The notes under the pieces were generated by a model that worked only from the letters and a program-made list of their open reading frames with translations, did not search any database and was not told the origin of the DNA. DNA of 38,889 nt from Candidatus Peribacteria bacterium RIFCSPLOWO2_12_FULL_55_15. Its GTDB lineage: Bacteria; Patescibacteriota; Gracilibacteria; Peribacterales; Peribacteraceae. Made by a program: the position numbers and the translations under genes. The stretch covers positions 1 through 38,889 of the forward strand of contig MFYG01000008.1 of NCBI GenBank assembly GCA_001789045.1. Direction: 5' to 3'. Shown piece after piece: positions 11,132-18,363 of this stretch; position 1 is the first letter of the stretch, and the number at the start of each line of letters is the position of its first letter.

Positions 11132-12438
11132 CCCCCCCTCTCCTGCCGCAGCGGGAGAGGTGACGGGGGAGAGGGGTTACAGAGAGCTATGAGCTCCTTC
11201 TCCGTCATCCACTCTGTCTCCCCCACTTGCCTCTTCTTCACCTCGAGCTTCTTCTTCTGCAAAGTCTTCTCTGACACGACAACCCGGAAAGGGACGCCGA
11301 TAAGATCGGCGTCGGCGAGGCGCACCCCGGGAGAGGCATTCAATCGATCATCAAAAAGAGCACAGATCCCACGGCCCTCCAGCCGGGCCAGCAGCTCTTC
11401 TGCTTCTTTGTACGCCTTCTCCGTAACCTCCCGCGCCAACGGCACAATATGCACCGCTGCCGGTGCAATGGAGAGAGGCCACCGCAATCCTTCATCATCA
11501 GCAAATACTTCCGTGATAATGCCCATGAGTCGGGAAATCCCAATGCCATAGCATCCCATAACGACAGGATGGCTCTGCCCTCCATCATCCGTGTACTGAA
11601 GTTTGAAAGGAACCGAGAACTTCGTGCCAAGCTTAAAGATATTTGCTGCTTCCGATGCACATGCCTCACGGAAAGCCATGCCCCCTGTCACCGGGCACAC
11701 GGTCTCCCCCTTCCGGTAGATCTCGCTATTGATCGCAACACGCCGCCCGCGTGCCTCTGCAGCCTCGCTGATGTAGATCGTATCCTCACCCTGTGGAAGG
11801 AGCACTTGGTACTCGTGCGAGTATTGGGAGAATGACCCCCCTGACGCAAAGGTACGATACGTGCGCTCTGCAAGACCAAGGCGATCAAAAACCCTTCCAT
11901 ATGCCTCCTGAACACGCTCGTAGTACCGTTCGAGACATGCGTCGTCCTGGTGAAACGAGTAAAGATCTTTCATGAGAAACTCGCGATTCCGGAGAATCCC
12001 CGATTTCACCCGCAGCTCATTGCGGAACTTCGTCTGAATTTGGTAGCAGGCAAACGGGAGATCCCTGTGAGAATGAACGAAATGCCGGACCAGCGGTACG
12101 ACAATCTCTTCATGGGTTGGATTGAGCGCATACTCCTGATCGCCCGCTCCCGGAACATGGAAGAGAACATCGAACGTGCCCCAACGACCCGAGCGCTCCC
12201 ATGCCTCCCGAGAAGAAAGCGCAGAGAGAAGGAGTTCCTGCGCGCCCAGAGCATTCATCTCCTCCCGCACCGCCACTTCAATCTTCCGAAGAACGCACAG
12301 CCCAAGCGGGAGGTAGCTATAGACCCCTGCCATCGTCTGCTGCACAAACCCGGCACGAACGAGGAGGTCCGCATTGAGGCTATCCGCATTGTTCGGCGCC
12401 TGCCGTGCGGTTTTCGTGAAAAGGCGTGACAGTCGCAT
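11128..12438 (-). CDS. proS: Prolyl-tRNA synthetase, short form without editing insertion
   Basis: 436 residues. Class II motifs are visible: motif 2 around TKFRNELRVKSGILRNREFLMKDLYSFH, and motif 3 around GCYGIGISRLMGIITEV. TMAGVYSYLPLGLCVLRKIE is the bacterial ProS N-terminal signature, and the anticodon-binding domain follows (AAVHIVPLA to VPFRVVVSEKTL). The roughly 180-residue INS/YbaK editing domain of E. coli ProS is absent, as in several reduced lineages. ATGs at 12438 and 12447 are both possible. The last 15 or so residues come from a palindromic repeat. Confidence 0.94.
   Translation of the reverse strand: MRLSRLFTKTARQAPNNADSLNADLLVRAGFVQQTMAGVYSYLPLGLCVLRKIEVAVREEMNALGAQELLLSALSSREAWERSGRWGTFDVLFHVPGAGDQEYALNPTHEEIVVPLVRHFVHSHRDLPFACYQIQTKFRNELRVKSGILRNREFLMKDLYSFHQDDACLERYYERVQEAYGRVFDRLGLAERTYRTFASGGSFSQYSHEYQVLLPQGEDTIYISEAAEARGRRVAINSEIYRKGETVCPVTGGMAFREACASEAANIFKLGTKFSVPFKLQYTDDGGQSHPVVMGCYGIGISRLMGIITEVFADDEGLRWPLSIAPAAVHIVPLAREVTEKAYKEAEELLARLEGRGICALFDDRLNASPGVRLADADLIGVPFRVVVSEKTLQKKKLEVKKRQVGETEWMTEKELIALCNPSPPSPLPLRQERGG
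11135..11176. repeat. GC-rich palindromic repeat forming the proS 3' end
   Basis: CCCCTCTCC (11135-11143) pairs with GGAGAGGGG (11168-11176). The sequence GACGGGGGAGAGGGGTTAC is close to GACGGGAGAGGGTTAC in the pyrG insertion, so both probably belong to one dispersed family. The repeat encodes the last residues of ProS (PSPPSPLPLRQERGG). Confidence 0.65.
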
Positions 12439-12469
12439 GACGGACATTGTACGCGTGTATACTCGCCTC

Positions 12470-12826
12470 ATGCACATCGAACATTTCGAAAAGGGCGTCC
12501 GGTATACCGACCGCGAGCTTCTTCTCCTGGCACGAAAAATCGGGAAGCTCGTAACGTACTGCGAAAAGCTGAAAAATGACGATTCGCGCATCCGCGTGGA
12601 AGCCATGAGCCGCGACACAAAGAAAATGGAAGACCACGTAAAGGTGCTCATCAGCATCTACCTTCCTGAGAAAACGCTGCACGCGGAGTCCAGACACCCG
12701 ACGGCCATAGAAGCGATTGACCGGTGCGTCGAAAAACTCGAACCGCAAATCAAGCGCTACAAAGAACTCTGCGCGCCAAAAAATAGAGGGAAAACAGGGA
12801 GAAAACCGACGGAAAGCTCTCTATAA
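12470..12826 (+). CDS. Ribosome hibernation-promoting factor / RaiA-like protein
   Basis: 118 residues. The S30AE-type fold is suggested by MHIEHFEKGVRYTDRELLLLARKIGKLV, then RIRVEAMSRD, DHVKVLISIYLPEKTLHAE and the helix AIEAIDRCVEKLEPQIKRYKE. Length fits a short HPF without the dimerising C-terminal domain; the tail is Lys/Arg-rich. It should bind the 30S decoding region in resting cells. TATACT (12458-12463) is 6 nt before the ATG, so the mRNA is probably leaderless. Its stop TAA lies inside the -10 box of the next gene. Confidence 0.75.
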   Translation: MHIEHFEKGVRYTDRELLLLARKIGKLVTYCEKLKNDDSRIRVEAMSRDTKKMEDHVKVLISIYLPEKTLHAESRHPTAIEAIDRCVEKLEPQIKRYKELCAPKNRGKTGRKPTESSL

Positions 12827-12833: not shown

Positions 12834-14327
12834 ATGATCCGCGGCGCCTTCCTGTTGATCGTCCTCCTCCATTGCTCAGGGAATGTTGCCCTGGCCGAGT
12901 CCCCGTATCCCAAAGCGTTGATCACCGGCCCCAAGGACATTCCTCTCGGACGGACGATTATTCTGGACGCGTCGAGGAGCATCGCCGAAGGAGAGGAGGC
13001 GGAATACCGCTGGTACGTTGGGAAAGGGAAAGAGCCCATCAGCCGGTCCGTCGAAGCGGTGTACACCCCGGAACGAGCGGGAACTCTCTCCTTCCGCCTC
13101 GTCATCCGCGTGCGCAGAAACAATGAACGGTACGAGGCGGAGACGACGCAGGATACTACGATCTTCACGAGAAAAGTCGTCCTTGTGGCCGATGCGGCGA
13201 TCCCAAAGGAAAAACTCGACGTCCACGAAGAATTCGCGCGCGAGAATGGAACATTGCTGCGTTCCCTCCAGCCGCAAACACCAGCCCTCCCCATCCGCTC
13301 CGCCGACGAGCTTTCGTCCTTCCTCGCCGGCCAAAAAGACGCCTTCGAGAATGCCGAAACAATCATCCTCTGGCTCGATGGCCTCACGGGCCCAAACGGA
13401 CTCCTGCGCCTGGCACAAACGGAACCGGAAATCCTCGCGGGAATCCCGAAACAATCCATCGTGCTCATCACCGGACGCAGCATCTCTACGCTCGCCCGAA
13501 CCGCTCGCGGCCCATTTTCCATTCTGAAACCCGAGCGCATTCTCATCACGCGCAAAGAGGCGATAGGCCCCATACTCTCCGCAAAAAACTTCCAATCGTT
13601 CTTCACGGAAATACAGGAACGGGACATCGACGCGCTTCTGCTCGACACCTCCACCACGGGCCTCCGTCCATGGAACGCCCTCTCCACGCTGGTGAACTAC
13701 ATGCTCACCCATGGAGTTCCCAGTGAGACGGTCCTCCTGCTCCTCATGCTCCCGGTCATTGCCACCATCCTCACGTTTCTCAAGCAAGTCGTCGGCATTA
13801 CAACCTTCGGCCTCTATACGCCCTCCATCATCGCTCTCAGCTTCATTGCCCTCGGATGGCATGTCGGCCTTCTCTTCTTTTTCTTCATTCTCGGAACAAG
13901 TTACGCCACGCGGGAATGCATGCGCCGCTGGCGTCTGCTCTACATCCCAAAAGTCGCCATCATTCTCACCGTCGTGAGTTTCTCCCTCCTCATCCTCATC
14001 GCGCTTGGCGCGTTCTTCGGCGTCACGCCGAGTCGAGGCACAATCTTCATTCTCCTCATCATGTCGACGCTCGCGGAAAGCTTTCTCAATCTCAAGACGG
14101 AAGAGGGCTGGCGCGCAGCGTGTCTCGGCATTGGAGAAACACTCCTCGCGGCCATCCTCTGCGTCGCCCTCATCCAGTGGCCGCCATTCCAATCACTTAT
14201 CCTCGCCTATCCGGAGAGCATTCTCACCACTCTCCTCATCAACGCCTTCCTCGGTCAATGGACTGGCCTGCGACTCATCGAGTATTTCCGCTTCCGTGAA
14301 GTCTTCCGCCATCTCCAGGAAGAATGA
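12834..14327 (+). CDS. PKD-like domain fused to a 7TM domain (inactive-transglutaminase-associated type)
   Basis: 497 residues. A cleavable signal peptide (MIRGAFLLIVLLHCSGNVALA) is followed by a PKD/Ig-like domain at about 24-105 (GPKDIPLGRTIILDASRS, EAEYRWYVGKG, YTPERAGTLSFRLVIRV). A periplasmic region of about 110-285 follows, and then about seven transmembrane helices to residue 490 (LLLLMLPVIATILTFLKQVVGITTFGLYTPSIIALSFIAL onward). The membrane part resembles the 7TM domain usually fused to an inactive transglutaminase and encoded next to RimK-like ligases. It overlaps the ATP-grasp gene by ATGA, consistent with a joint role in peptide-amide modification at the envelope. No transglutaminase motif is seen. 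Confidence 0.7.
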   Translation: MIRGAFLLIVLLHCSGNVALAESPYPKALITGPKDIPLGRTIILDASRSIAEGEEAEYRWYVGKGKEPISRSVEAVYTPERAGTLSFRLVIRVRRNNERYEAETTQDTTIFTRKVVLVADAAIPKEKLDVHEEFARENGTLLRSLQPQTPALPIRSADELSSFLAGQKDAFENAETIILWLDGLTGPNGLLRLAQTEPEILAGIPKQSIVLITGRSISTLARTARGPFSILKPERILITRKEAIGPILSAKNFQSFFTEIQERDIDALLLDTSTTGLRPWNALSTLVNYMLTHGVPSETVLLLLMLPVIATILTFLKQVVGITTFGLYTPSIIALSFIALGWHVGLLFFFFILGTSYATRECMRRWRLLYIPKVAIILTVVSFSLLILIALGAFFGVTPSRGTIFILLIMSTLAESFLNLKTEEGWRAACLGIGETLLAAILCVALIQWPPFQSLILAYPESILTTLLINAFLGQWTGLRLIEYFRFREVFRHLQEE

Positions 14328-16672
14328 GTATCATTTTTCACCATGGCATCCTCGGACTGAATGCCCGGAACCTCCTCTACATCAGACCATTCAATCCGCG
14401 CAAAGCCATCGCCCTCGCCGATGATAAGATGCGAACGAAGGCGTTCCTCGCGACGCGCGGCATTCCCGTCGCAAAAGTGTATGCACGCATCGCCTCTCGA
14501 AAAGAGTGCTGCTCCTTTGATTTCCAAAGCCTCCCCGAGACGTGCGTTCTCAAACCCAACCGAGGATTTGGAGGAGAGGGCATCCTCATCCTCAAGGGAA
14601 GACGCGGCGGCATGTTTCTGGAACAAGGAAAAAACCCGATCCCCGAACGACGCCTCCGTGAGCACATCGAAGACATCCTCGACGGACGATTCTCCATTGA
14701 TGGAAGACCGGACATGGCATTTTTCGAGAAGCTTCTCATTGCGCACGAGTGCTTCGCCCCCTTCCGTCCTGCAGGACTTCCCGACATCCGCATCATCGTC
14801 TTCAACCTCATTCCCGTCATGGCCATGCTGCGCATTCCCACGGTGCAAAGCGGCGGGAAAGCGAATGTCCACCTCGGAGGCGTCGGCGTCGGCATTGATC
14901 TCGCAAGCGGAACCACCACCCATGCAGCACAGTACAACAGCATTATTCCGACATTGCCAAACGGACGTTCCGCCGGTGGGATCCGAGTACCCGAATGGCA
15001 CAACCTCCTCCTCATTGCCTCTCGCATCCAAGAACTCACCAACATCGGCTATCTGGCAGTCGATCTCACCATGGACGCTGAGCAGGGTCCGCTCCTTCTA
15101 GAAGTGAACGCTCGAGCTGGCTTGATGGTACAAGTGGCCAATCTCGCCCCCCTCCGCAGGCGCCTCGAACGCATTAAAGGCACGAACGTTCGCAAGCCGG
15201 AACAGGGCGTCCGGATCGCCCAGGATCTCTTTGGTCAAAAAGAGCGCCTTCCTCCGCAAGCGGAAGACGGACGCATCGTCATCGCTCCGCGGGAAACAAT
15301 CATCATTCCGGGGAACCAAACACATTTGGAAATCCCCTGTACCATCGCCCCAGAGCAGGAATGGACCACTTTTTCCCCTGAGCTTCTCCCGACGAAAGAC
15401 GACGGATCGAACACCCAACGGATAAAATTCTTCCTGAAAGGAAAGAAAATCCACACCATTGTCCACAGAGGCCCCATGCCGAATGCCGCAGTGCGCGCGG
15501 TCATTGGACGCCGAGATCTCGCCGGATTCCTCATTGACCCGTTCAAAGAACCGCCGGATCTCCTCCGCGGAGCAGCGAGAAGGAATATGCACATGATGGA
15601 CCGCACGATCGCTCGGATCGACCGGAACCTTTCGATCCTCCCCCTCTTGCAACCGCAAAATCTTTCGGAAGAGCGTGCGCACTGCGAGCAAGACCGAACA
15701 TGGAACCCCATCCTGCAGTACCCGCCGCTCCCGGAACATATCGATGTCTGGGAAAAGCAGCTGCGGAATCTGGCCTACGACGACTCCCCCCTCGGCATAC
15801 TCCTGCAAAAAAAACAGGAGGAGCTCCTTGCCCACATCGGGCTCCTCCGCACCCGCGGAAACGCGCAGGCATTCACCGAAGCATCAATGGAACTCTTTGG
15901 ACAGGCGACAGAGGAGCTCCAGCGCACTGCCAAAACATCCATGGACCGACGCGCCGCATGCGATCTCCCAACCAAATCGCATCTTCTCCTCTCGGCAGAG
16001 ATGACGGAGCTGCGCCTCAGCGAAGCCTTGTCCGCCTGCGGCCTCCATGAGTGGTCCGTCCGACGACGGCAACACATGATCGCCGACTGCGCCGTCGGAG
16101 GAAAAATCATCTACATCCGCCACGGCGCCCGTTTCGCCCCCGACCACATTGCCGCCCTCATCGCTCACGAAATCGAAACGCATGCCCTCACCACGGAAAA
16201 TGGAGAGCGTCAGCCATTCCAGATGTTCCGACGCGGATGCGCGAACTGCCTGGAAACCCAGGAAGGTCTCGCGATCTTCAATCAGAACCGCTTTCTCTCC
16301 CCCTACCATGAAAAACGTTTCAGCGCCCAGCGCACCACCCTTGCAGTCGCCTTCGCCCTCGGACATTCCTTTGCGGACACACGGCGGCACCTCGAGAAAG
16401 AACTCGGATACTCTCCAGAAAAAGCGCTCACGAAGACCCTTCAGGTGAAACGGGGCATCAGCAACACCGCGGAACCGGGAACCTTCACGAAAGGACTCGT
16501 GTACTTCCGAGGTTCCATCGCCATCGAGGAATTTGTGAAAAACGGCGGTGACCTCCGAAAACTCTACATCGGGAAAATTGCGCTGGAAGATCTCCCCCTC
16601 CTCGCGCAGATCCCTGGCATCGTGGAACCTGTATTGCTCCCAAAGTACCTGCAAAACCCTTCCTTACCATGA
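14324..16672 (+). CDS. Fusion of RimK-like ATP-grasp ligase and DUF1704 metallopeptidase
   Basis: 782 residues in two units. Residues about 1-290 are an ATP-grasp enzyme of the alpha-L-glutamate ligase-like type: VLKPNRGFGGEGILIL (75-90), DIRIIVFNLIPVMAMLRIP, and the metal site LEVNARAGL (about 259-267). Residues about 420-782 are DUF1704 (QEGLA-motif family): the zinc motif HEIETH (615-620, HExxxH) and TQEGLAIFNQ (645-654). DUF1704 includes the eukaryotic tyrosine carboxypeptidase MATCAP. So the protein may both add and remove an amino acid on one target; that is inference. It is translationally coupled to the 7TM gene. Confidence 0.82.
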   Translation: MSIIFHHGILGLNARNLLYIRPFNPRKAIALADDKMRTKAFLATRGIPVAKVYARIASRKECCSFDFQSLPETCVLKPNRGFGGEGILILKGRRGGMFLEQGKNPIPERRLREHIEDILDGRFSIDGRPDMAFFEKLLIAHECFAPFRPAGLPDIRIIVFNLIPVMAMLRIPTVQSGGKANVHLGGVGVGIDLASGTTTHAAQYNSIIPTLPNGRSAGGIRVPEWHNLLLIASRIQELTNIGYLAVDLTMDAEQGPLLLEVNARAGLMVQVANLAPLRRRLERIKGTNVRKPEQGVRIAQDLFGQKERLPPQAEDGRIVIAPRETIIIPGNQTHLEIPCTIAPEQEWTTFSPELLPTKDDGSNTQRIKFFLKGKKIHTIVHRGPMPNAAVRAVIGRRDLAGFLIDPFKEPPDLLRGAARRNMHMMDRTIARIDRNLSILPLLQPQNLSEERAHCEQDRTWNPILQYPPLPEHIDVWEKQLRNLAYDDSPLGILLQKKQEELLAHIGLLRTRGNAQAFTEASMELFGQATEELQRTAKTSMDRRAACDLPTKSHLLLSAEMTELRLSEALSACGLHEWSVRRRQHMIADCAVGGKIIYIRHGARFAPDHIAALIAHEIETHALTTENGERQPFQMFRRGCANCLETQEGLAIFNQNRFLSPYHEKRFSAQRTTLAVAFALGHSFADTRRHLEKELGYSPEKALTKTLQVKRGISNTAEPGTFTKGLVYFRGSIAIEEFVKNGGDLRKLYIGKIALEDLPLLAQIPGIVEPVLLPKYLQNPSLP

Positions 16673-16676
16673 CACA

Positions 16677-17687
16677 TCATTCCCACCGCACTCTTTCCAA
16701 AGACGGCAGCACCGTCATCCACGTCTGACCGGGGGCGAAAAGGAGAGGACTGCCATCGGCAATGAAAAACCGGAAAGGACCGTCGGAACTGCGTTCCCAG
16801 AACCCGTGTTGGAGAACGCCGGAACGGAAGAGGAGCACTCGAGAACGACCATCAGGATTGATTGCTAGACGCCCGTACTCCCCTTCCGAAACTATAGGAA
16901 CCTCAAGAATGAGCACATTGGCAGGTTTTCCCTGTTCCGACACAGACCCGCTGCGACGGATGTACGCCTCCTGGATCGTGTCGTACGTGTACATGACATC
17001 ATGGAGAGGACTGAAGAATTGGAGATGGATGACGTAAGCTCCCGACCCCGCAGGGGAAGGACCGATGCGGTACGGAGGCCACACAATCCTCCGCCGCGCG
17101 GCATGGCCGACCAAGGCACGAACATGTTCCGACCGCAGGAACATATTATGCGGCGCGGGAACGGAACGATCTCGTAATGGAGCATCGTCGACGCCGAGCA
17201 CATTCACCCACGGCACAGGACTTTCCTCAAGATTCTGCAGTGCTTCCGGACTTCCCCCTGCAAAGAGGAGAGCGGAGGCCCACGGTTCTATCACCGAGAG
17301 AAAATAGGGACGAAGGGAACGAACCGGACCTGTCTGCTCCGGGAGATGCTCTCGATCGAAGAATGCGACGAAGCGGGAGATGTATCCCTCCACGAGGAAT
17401 TCGCCGACAAAGAGCGCATCGGAGAGTCCACGCTGATGCGGCCGCGCATCCTCGTGGTTCTCGATGATGACGGCAACAGGGAATATGGATGGTTTGGACC
17501 ATGGAGCCAAGCCGAAACGGGAGAGAAAATCCGAAATTCCACCGGATGGTAATGCTTCTACAGAGGAAGGAACGGGAGGAATCGGCGGACGATGAGAAGG
17601 AGGCACGCTGAATAACCGGACGAAGAAGAGGATGCTCACACTGAGAGCAACCAATGCCGCGCCGAGGACAAAAGAACGCCTGAACAT
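16677..17687 (-). CDS. DUF3048 (YerB-like) membrane-anchored protein
   Basis: 336 residues. A single N-terminal transmembrane anchor (SFVLGAALVALSVSILFFVRLF) precedes the DUF3048 domain: FPVAVIIENHEDARPHQRGLSDALFVGEFLVEGYISRFVAFFD, GPVRSLRPYFLSVIEPW, and the C-terminal half with QGKPANVLILEVP and FAPGQTWMTVLPS. Members are extracytoplasmic proteins of unknown activity, often lipoproteins; here no lipobox is present. It is the last gene of the hppA operon, 1 nt after the L25 stop, and is convergent with the ATP-grasp gene with only 4 nt between. Confidence 0.85.
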   Translation of the reverse strand: MFRRSFVLGAALVALSVSILFFVRLFSVPPSHRPPIPPVPSSVEALPSGGISDFLSRFGLAPWSKPSIFPVAVIIENHEDARPHQRGLSDALFVGEFLVEGYISRFVAFFDREHLPEQTGPVRSLRPYFLSVIEPWASALLFAGGSPEALQNLEESPVPWVNVLGVDDAPLRDRSVPAPHNMFLRSEHVRALVGHAARRRIVWPPYRIGPSPAGSGAYVIHLQFFSPLHDVMYTYDTIQEAYIRRSGSVSEQGKPANVLILEVPIVSEGEYGRLAINPDGRSRVLLFRSGVLQHGFWERSSDGPFRFFIADGSPLLFAPGQTWMTVLPSLERVRWE

Positions 17688-17688
17688 A

Positions 17689-18363
17689 CTATTTCGTCCC
17701 TTCCATCGGCGCAGAACCTGCAGGAGGCGCTCCTTCTGCGGTAGGAACTGCCCCCTCCGCGGCTCCCTCTGCAACAACCGGTGGTGGGGCCACTTCCTCC
17801 TCTTTTCGCTGCTCCTGCACCGTCGCAATAACCACCGTTGGTCCTTCCAATATCACGACATTGGGCGGAAGCGGAATATCACGCACCATGAGGACATCGC
17901 CGAACTGTGCGAGAGCATCGAGAGAAAGGGGAAGTTCCGCGGGAATATGCGATGGCAGGCACCGCACGGTCACATGATCGAGAGGAACGACGAGCACTCC
18001 TGCAAGATCGCGCACGGCAGATGACACTCCCTCAAAGCGAAGAGGAATGGGAACCTCCACTTCCTTCGTGAGATCCACGGCGTAGAAATCCGAATGAATG
18101 CAGTGATCCGTGACGGGATCGAACGCGATGTCGCGGAAGAGGGCCGGCACCACCTTCTCCGCATCCCCATCGATGCTCAATTCCACCAATGCACTCTTTC
18201 CTGCATGATCAAAGGCTTTCTGGAGCACAGGCGCCGAACATTCCAGGAGAGTGTTCTCCATTTTTTGGCCGTAGAGAACACAGGGGATAGAGCCCAAACG
18301 ACGGAGGGCCGCTGCTTTGACCTTCGGCCGCCTGGTCGCAACCGCAAGAGGAATCATAGCCAT
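17689..18363 (-). CDS. rplY: 50S ribosomal protein L25 (CTC form)
   Basis: 224 residues. The N-terminal 5S-rRNA-binding L25 domain (about 1-95) shows RRLGSIPCVLYGQ, ALVELSIDGD and HCIHSDFYAVDL. The C-terminal TL5/CTC domain shows VEVPIPLRFEGVSSAVRDLAGVLV, VRCLPSHIPAELPLSLDAL and IPLPPNVVIL. A low-complexity Ala/Glu/Pro tail ends it. The start could be Met1 or Met3 (MAMIPLAV). It stabilises the central protuberance with 5S rRNA. It is encoded between a glycosyltransferase and DUF3048 in a minus-strand operon. Confidence 0.93.
   Translation of the reverse strand: MAMIPLAVATRRPKVKAAALRRLGSIPCVLYGQKMENTLLECSAPVLQKAFDHAGKSALVELSIDGDAEKVVPALFRDIAFDPVTDHCIHSDFYAVDLTKEVEVPIPLRFEGVSSAVRDLAGVLVVPLDHVTVRCLPSHIPAELPLSLDALAQFGDVLMVRDIPLPPNVVILEGPTVVIATVQEQRKEEEVAPPPVVAEGAAEGAVPTAEGAPPAGSAPMEGTK

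Follow-up and report, generated by a model that had tools for sequence, protein, structure and literature searches.

What does a protein do that carries a ligase and a peptidase in one chain and is encoded directly behind a membrane protein? Such a protein is found in a 38,889-nucleotide stretch of DNA, here called the window, from contig MFYG01000008.1 of Candidatus Peribacteria bacterium RIFCSPLOWO2_12_FULL_55_15 (assembly GCA_001789045.1), a member of a lineage of very small bacteria, with a genome of 0.9 Mb in 24 contigs. Two genes of the window concern us, both on the forward strand: the first (12834..14327) encodes a 497-residue seven-transmembrane (7TM) protein, and the second (14324..16672) a 782-residue fusion of an ATP-grasp ligase, a degenerate retropepsin, and a MATCAP (DUF1704) metallopeptidase. 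We lean, modestly, toward reading the pair as a module for reversible C-terminal tagging, with the cytosolic tail of the 7TM partner itself as the most likely acceptor. Directly observed in its support are the domain identities, the intact ligase and MATCAP active sites, the degenerate retropepsin, the obligate co-occurrence with the 7TM protein, and 7TM tails that end in two glutamates (-EE); what we infer is all of the catalysis, which amino acid is added and to which acceptor, and what the module does for the cell. A preliminary description of the locus had proposed reversible C-terminal tagging, which fits everything found, though it had missed the middle domain of the fusion.

That description had also stated that one 782-residue protein unites a RimK-like ATP-grasp ligase with a DUF1704 metallopeptidase, and this was confirmed, with both Pfam families scoring above their curated cut-offs. 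PF14397 (ATPgrasp_ST) matched residues 15-285 (E 6.8e-55; 186.7 bits vs 31.4), and PF08014 (MATCAP) matched residues 458-763 (E 2.3e-47; 162.2 bits vs 27). The full MATCAP domain comprises residues 425-779 (15596..16660), the extent of the match to TIGR02421, the QEGLA equivalog (E 3e-51; 174.9 bits, under the NCBIfam cut-off of 338.65). The AlphaFold2 (AF2) model of the fusion protein, with a predicted local distance difference test score (pLDDT) of 87.6, had human MATCAP (7z5g) as its best structural match (Foldseek E 6e-12; Z 27.7, rmsd 2.6 across 286 residues). Both the metal-binding and catalytic HEIETH motif (residues 615-620, 16166..16183) and the QEGLA motif (residues 646-650, 16259..16273), whose E647 is the third metal ligand, were present, and H615, E616, H620, and E647 were conserved in 24/24 aligned fusions and also invariant in a 28-row alignment. 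The domain is a PF08014 member by sequence, active-site residues, and fold.

The RimK/RloC-like ligase domain spans residues 5-306 (14336..15241), as matched by TIGR02291 and PF14397. Residues 8-289 of the model match ArgX (3vpb, Z 18.7), RimK (5zct, Z 17.5), and LysX, all at Z 17-19 and with shared fold and catalytic residues; identity to RimK is about 20-22% in structural alignments. K77, R156, R170, N181, E260, and N262, which we take to be the residues expected of RimK-type ATP/Mg and catalytic motifs, are all in place in the window and are kept in 22 of the 24 aligned fusions. The two exceptions are L039, whose ligase is degraded, and L040, which is masked over part of the site. The preliminary description had raised the loss of activity-critical residues as an objection; an inactive ligase is ruled out for the window by its intact site residues and is true, among the 24 rows, only for L039 (genome G042).

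Its other objection, a misassembly or freak fusion, is ruled out by conservation of the fusion in 46 of 59 related genomes. Among the relatives found with an alignment as the query, the named ones are Candidatus Peregrinibacteria, Peribacteria, and Gracilibacteria; a scan of genome contigs with the single fusion protein as the query returned no relative. Some fusion-bearing relatives read through TGA. The ligase part of the fusion was detected in 46 of the 59 genomes, in 40 by one near-full-length match; in the other six the gene meets a contig end (G006, G014, G031), changes frame (G012), or is interrupted (G040, G044). A 47th match, in G049, is a stand-alone MATCAP. At the G012 locus (L025, G012:C4, 6761-9155) the fusion lies in two overlapping frames within the MATCAP domain, owing to a frameshift or a sequencing error. 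We found no description of the fusion in these bacteria in the open-access literature; subscription papers, which may mention parts of it, lie outside this scope.

The distribution of the 7TM family matches that of the fusion. It was found in exactly the 46 of 59 relatives that have the fusion, and neither was found in the other 13 (Fisher p 2e-13, with genomes taken as independent). When the phylum was sampled evenly (286 genomes), 87 genomes gave a strong TIGR02291 match and 86 had the 7TM family. Of the 87 genomes with a strong ligase match, 86 have the 7TM protein and no other genome does; in the exception, G269, the ligase is cut by a contig end. As ligase and 7TM protein occur in the same genomes, they are an obligate pair. 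In the window the two genes are coupled, as the preliminary description had it, with the PKD-7TM gene upstream: they overlap by 4 nt (ATGA), the A at 14324 serving both as the end of the final GAA codon and in the ATG start. In eight genomes (G039, G041, G042, G048, G051, G053, G056, and G057), the 7TM gene lies on a different contig or at a distance of more than 70 kb, and no 7TM gene was found beside the fusion.

The 7TM protein is made up of a probable signal peptide, a PKD-like domain, an alpha/beta ectodomain, the 7TM domain, and a cytosolic C-terminal tail. The probable signal peptide (residues 1-21, 12834..12896) was recognized by eye as a hydrophobic N-terminus ending in ALA, and relatives have N-termini that resemble it. 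The PKD label given to the protein earlier held in part: the domain (residues 26-119, 12909..13190) matches PKD at E 0.012, under the Pfam cut-off, while Foldseek matches its predicted structure to a collagenase PKD domain (4tn9, E 1.1e-4). PF14402 matched residues 301-490 (E 7.1e-26; 91.6 bits vs a cut-off of 25), and the AF2 model (pLDDT 85.9) has seven membrane helices (residues ~297-475, 13722..14258) and the alpha/beta ectodomain; in a PDB search with this model, the membrane part had no convincing match among the 50 matches listed, a result that carries little weight in either direction. The C-terminal tail (residues 476-497, 14259..14324) has a helix at 481-496 in the model and 5.0 K/R per row. 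Because of the positive charge in the loop at 356-372 and in the tail, together with the signal peptide, the tail is predicted to lie in the cytosol. It would thus be on the same side as the fusion protein, in which neither a signal peptide nor a membrane helix was seen by eye in sequence or model.

In the window this tail ends in FRHLQEE (candidate acceptor peptide end, RFREVFRHLQEE), and the terminal Glu-Glu codons (14319..14324) encode the proposed acceptor or trimming end point. Of 57 fusion genomes, 53 encode a 7TM protein with EE at its C-terminus (43/46 relatives and 10/11 additional genomes from the phylum sample). A second set, made up of named loci and overlapping with the first, had EE in 25 of the 26 fused loci with a 7TM; the two sets share contigs under two names, and L140 and L149, with no 7TM end in the fetched stretch, were left out of the tail counts. 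Entropy was 0.13 and 0.35 bits at tail positions -1 and -2 and 2.6-3.4 bits at -3 to -6. Among 20 loci with a separate MATCAP, three (L071, L147, and L124) have the EE tail, each with an altered retropepsin motif. None of the 35 ligase-retropepsin loci without MATCAP nearby ends in EE, nor does any of 24 loci from other phyla, Vibrio among them.

Among 365 other frames read from these stretches, only 7 end in EE, which rules out a general tendency of the genomes as the source of the tail. Also ruled out was an artefact of the Shine-Dalgarno sequence or overlap of the next gene: the EE codons vary between GAA and GAG, and no ligase start stands behind the stop of unlinked 7TM genes, so EE is not a ribosome-binding site. 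For these unlinked genes EE had been predicted beforehand, and it was found in seven of the eight. The eighth, from G042, ends in DDEEV, and the ligase of the same genome (L039) has lost active-site residues. At L039 (G042:C83, 4380-6896) the ATP-grasp site is degraded and the MATCAP intact, and the 7TM partner lies on another contig (L160, G042:C51). G042 alone among the fusion genomes has a residue after EE, an end that resembles an encoded substrate for one MATCAP cut. An exactly terminal -EE, conserved on an obligate partner, is a concrete candidate acceptor; unlinked genes retain it, and loci that have an intact retropepsin and no MATCAP close by lack it.

The same tail could serve as a docking tether that anchors the fusion through the MATCAP or ligase groove, with another protein or a small metabolite as the real substrate. 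A short docking motif would likewise show conserved terminal acidic residues, and the conservation of the tail even in unlinked genes suits a tether as well. Such a motif need not sit at a free C-terminus, however, yet nothing follows EE in 53 of the 57 genomes; the sole case of EE plus a residue comes from the genome with a degraded ligase, and both enzyme families are known to act on C-terminal ends of this kind. On balance we consider the tether unlikely.

The preliminary description had left open whether an envelope or a ribosomal target is tagged, and the evidence favors the 7TM partner's own cytosolic -EE tail. Tagging of S6 or another ribosomal C-terminus, as for RimK, would agree with the place of RimK among the best structural matches of the ligase and with HPF, a ribosome factor, encoded just upstream in the window's family. 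S6 as the target was not supported, however: no readable S6 frame ended in EE at 30 fetched loci, where frames were picked by position and length and L276 was left unresolved. The fusion and the 7TM protein, moreover, always occur together, while S6 is also encoded by genomes that lack the fusion, such as G002 and G009, and we regard a ribosomal target as very improbable.

Between ligase and MATCAP lies a third domain (residues 312-412, 15257..15559), which by HMM (hidden Markov model) match and hhalign is a homologue of RimB/RloA-type retropepsins that has lost the DTG active site. Because sequence-only searches were not significant, the homology rests on intermediate ligase-retropepsin proteins and on profile comparison. 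Residues 306-425 are without a Pfam match, the middle region alone in 16 members gave no retropepsin match, a PDB hmmsearch placed retropepsin 9g58 (E 0.75) behind unrelated acetyltransferases (0.23), and a plasmid tblastn returned chance matches only. Elsewhere in the phylum, the same ligase is followed immediately, and in frame, by PF05618 (RimB/RloA retropepsin). An HMM built from the middle region of the fusion matched the domains of these ligase-retropepsin proteins with E down to 3e-21 and also stand-alone RimB-like proteins (L082, E 2e-7; L085, E 4e-7). With hhalign, the middle region gave Prob 99.8 against the ligase-retropepsin set and Prob 97.3 (E 2.5e-11) against the stand-alone RimB-like set, and all controls (three slices of other domains and five column-shuffled versions) stayed below 0.5%. 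No match to PF05618 itself was obtained in the 59 relatives, the window's genome counted among them; the domain has presumably degenerated too far. In the AF2 model the domain is all-beta with a short helix; whole-chain structure searches barely probe it, and the matches of a whole-model VIA-align were filled by the ligase and MATCAP domains.

At the position of the retropepsin DTGA motif (15347..15358), the fusion of the window reads APEQ, with APE in place of the catalytic DTG. The motif D[TS]GA was found in 37/37 rows without MATCAP in the locus (meaning none in the fetched locus; G251, G137, G177, and G163 have a more distant MATCAP elsewhere), in 8/20 rows with a separate MATCAP, and in 0/34 fused rows. 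D[TS]G without the A was kept in two of the 34 fused rows, and the two genomes of family f58 with a separate MATCAP gene beside the ligase (L071, L147) have NTGR. Ten loci were left out of the motif and tree counts: L070 is from the same genome as L098, L112 and L025 are split genes, and L063, L041, L042, L043, L069, L039, and L151 are partial, altered in code, degraded, or misaligned. Among these, L112, L063, L070, and L151 have DTGA and L069 has DTGV; the motif is lost in L025 and L039 and unreadable in L041 and L043, and L042 is absent from the table.

Two changes are required to account for the fused rows on the ligase tree, one for a large clade and one for a second pair (L067, L068). Ligase-retropepsin proteins acquired MATCAP on at least one occasion, probably on two; a single origin of the fusion may still hold. 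Since an intact retropepsin stands in the same frame behind the same ligase elsewhere in the phylum, the aspartic eraser appears to have been replaced by MATCAP. The simplest history would begin with a 7TM protein and a ligase-retropepsin protein, continue with the entry of MATCAP into the locus, and end with loss of the retropepsin active site and fusion of MATCAP. This would be a clear case of one protease class replacing another within one polypeptide, with the old domain retained without its active site. In family f38 (L102-L109, L113, and relatives), a ligase-retropepsin locus has a separate MATCAP gene on the opposite strand, the motif is mostly DTGV or DTGI, and the 7TM tails are not EE; this family may be an intermediate of the swap.

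Ligase and MATCAP could also be two unrelated activities in one chain, with MATCAP a processing or recycling peptidase whose substrate is unconnected with the ligase product. Stand-alone MATCAPs that lie in other operons within the same taxonomic class would fit this, as would G042, where MATCAP is retained with a degraded ligase. We nevertheless give it very little credence, given the repeated joining that the ligase tree suggests and the altered active site of the old eraser wherever MATCAP is fused.

In the tagging mechanism that we favor, the ligase domain would add one or more amino acids, most likely glutamate by analogy with RimK, to an exposed -Glu-Glu tail at its free C-terminal carboxylate. 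The cytosolic C-terminus of the co-encoded 7TM protein would be the most likely acceptor, and the MATCAP domain of the same polypeptide would trim the added residues back to the encoded -Glu-Glu. The module would set the tail state of its 7TM partner and hence what the partner transports, binds, or signals. The middle domain would be a relic of the original aspartic eraser, its DTG lost when MATCAP took over, and the dead retropepsin would probably be kept for binding and stimulating the ligase, as RimB-type domains do. By analogy with RloABC only, the 7TM system may have a role in envelope or osmotic homeostasis.

The RloABC system of P. aeruginosa likewise has a PF14402 7TM partner (RloB), an ATP-grasp ligase (RloC), and a peptidase, with genes often adjacent. 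RloA is reported to cleave polyglutamate, and loss of RloB or RloC to rescue the loss of RloA peptidases; the authors suspect post-translational polyglutamylation, and the RloC target and in vivo peptidase substrate are left open in the published work (PMC12239564). There, the retropepsin RloA is separate and secreted, whereas here a cytosolic MATCAP is part of the ligase chain and the retropepsin is degenerate. The 7TM protein of RloABC has an inactive transglutaminase domain, whereas the one described here has the PKD-like domain and the alpha/beta ectodomain; no transglutaminase family other than the 7TM part was found on it in Pfam at E up to 1, and the NCBIfam RloB model gave 50 bits vs a cut-off of 900. 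RloB-type tails outside the phylum differ too, with EE in 0/24. RloB/RloC-like pairs were present in 86 of the 286 genomes of this phylum; 96% of RloB matches were reportedly assigned to Proteobacteria (PMC12239564).

These systems bring up a further alternative, in which the ligase makes free poly-glutamate or a similar peptide, the 7TM protein exports it, and MATCAP limits the chain length. RimK is reported to make free poly-alpha-glutamate when RimB is present (PMC11957791), RloA to be secreted as well as to cleave polyglutamate (PMC12239564), and ligase and 7TM protein are found together in 86 of 87 genomes. The eraser described here, however, shows no signal peptide and shares a chain with a cytosolic ligase, and export would leave the -EE tail of the 7TM protein unexplained. 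We judge such a peptide maker quite unlikely.

The union of a writer and an eraser in one polypeptide has a reported precedent in the RimBK hybrid of Desulfotalea psychrophila and Flavobacteriales/Rhodobacterales, in which a retropepsin is likewise joined to a RimK-type ligase, and RimB is reported to remove Glu from RpsF and to stimulate RimK (PMC11957791). In the hybrid RimB is N-terminal of RimK, whereas here the order is ligase, retropepsin-like domain, and MATCAP, the retropepsin being without DTG and MATCAP following as a third domain. Term counts in the main text of the RimBK paper gave no mention of 7TM or transglutaminase (PMC11957791). The human MATCAP1/2 proteins (TMCP1/2, KIAA0895L/KIAA0895) share the HExxxH + E site, the KRG..T..PG.F.K..VY region, and the fold, with E647 of QEGLA equivalent to the EEG motif of TMCP1, and their reported substrates are also glutamate-rich C-terminal tails (PMC10499314). 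TMCP1 is described as needing a penultimate glutamate, behind which it removes Y, F, or A, and both TMCP1 and TMCP2 as removing polyglutamate (PMC10499314). The human target differs, being tubulin, and the writers TTL/TTLL are separate proteins. The module works like Rim/Rlo systems, yet it is not RloABC, as it has no secreted RloA, no transglutaminase domain that we found, and a different eraser, nor is it RimBK, as the domain order differs, the retropepsin is inactive, and MATCAP has been added. Its new elements are the exchange of the eraser and the tail of the 7TM partner.

Several points weigh against reversible tagging of the 7TM tail. The enzyme activities are predicted from sequence and fold only, and the ligase, a PF14397 member by its profile match, yet falls below the TIGR02291 equivalog cut-off (residues 5-306; E 3e-76; 256.3 bits vs 314.2), which is passed by 0/286 genomes of the phylum sample. 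L186 is fused and has intact active sites, yet its 7TM protein ends in FKQN, and the 7TM protein ends in QE in G034 and G052 and in NE in G277. The -EE tail could be a docking site instead of a substrate. As G042 retains MATCAP beside a degraded ligase, MATCAP must have a use without this ligase. Independent origins are few: the tree shows two fusion events, and 0.05 is out of reach for sign tests on independent pairs. The Fisher values, which treat related genomes as independent, make the case look stronger than it is. Finally, the module is no simple copy of RloABC, since the eraser here is cytosolic while RloA of P. aeruginosa is secreted, and since RloB-type proteins from other phyla do not have EE tails.

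Taken to its full extent, reversible tagging would make this gene pair a bacterial counterpart of the tubulin tail code. One polypeptide would write and erase on the -Glu-Glu of its 7TM partner, the eraser would have been exchanged from retropepsin to MATCAP, a family known elsewhere from microtubules, with the dead retropepsin kept as a ligase regulator, and the partner's tail would have changed alongside to -EE. We hold this fuller picture tentatively, at a little under an even chance. If true, it would name the missing polyglutamylation target for one branch of Rlo-like systems. That a peptidase of the MATCAP family shares a chain with a writer of the glutamate-ligase type also suggests an old role of the family in trimming added tail residues.

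Other features of these loci were also noted. Directly upstream of the 7TM gene of the window is an HPF/S30AE-type gene (12374-12826), and the gene order HPF-7TM-fusion is repeated in other genomes of the window's family and was not seen at more distant loci. A DUF3048 gene (16677-17828, reverse strand) is convergent with the fusion gene and recurs beside it in the same family. Two ligase-retropepsin proteins, L072 (G131; 922 aa) and L101 (G302; 856 aa), have an extra C-terminal half that by eye resembles a second ATP-grasp domain. Among stand-alone MATCAPs, L046 (G007:C26, 3879-9721) lies in an operon with a carbamoyltransferase, an amidohydrolase, an ATP-grasp ligase, and an M20-type peptidase, and L047 has a similar gene order. 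The stand-alone MATCAP of L048 (G045:C27, 5211-10100) adjoins an N-formylglutamate amidohydrolase and is close to a MurD-like ligase.

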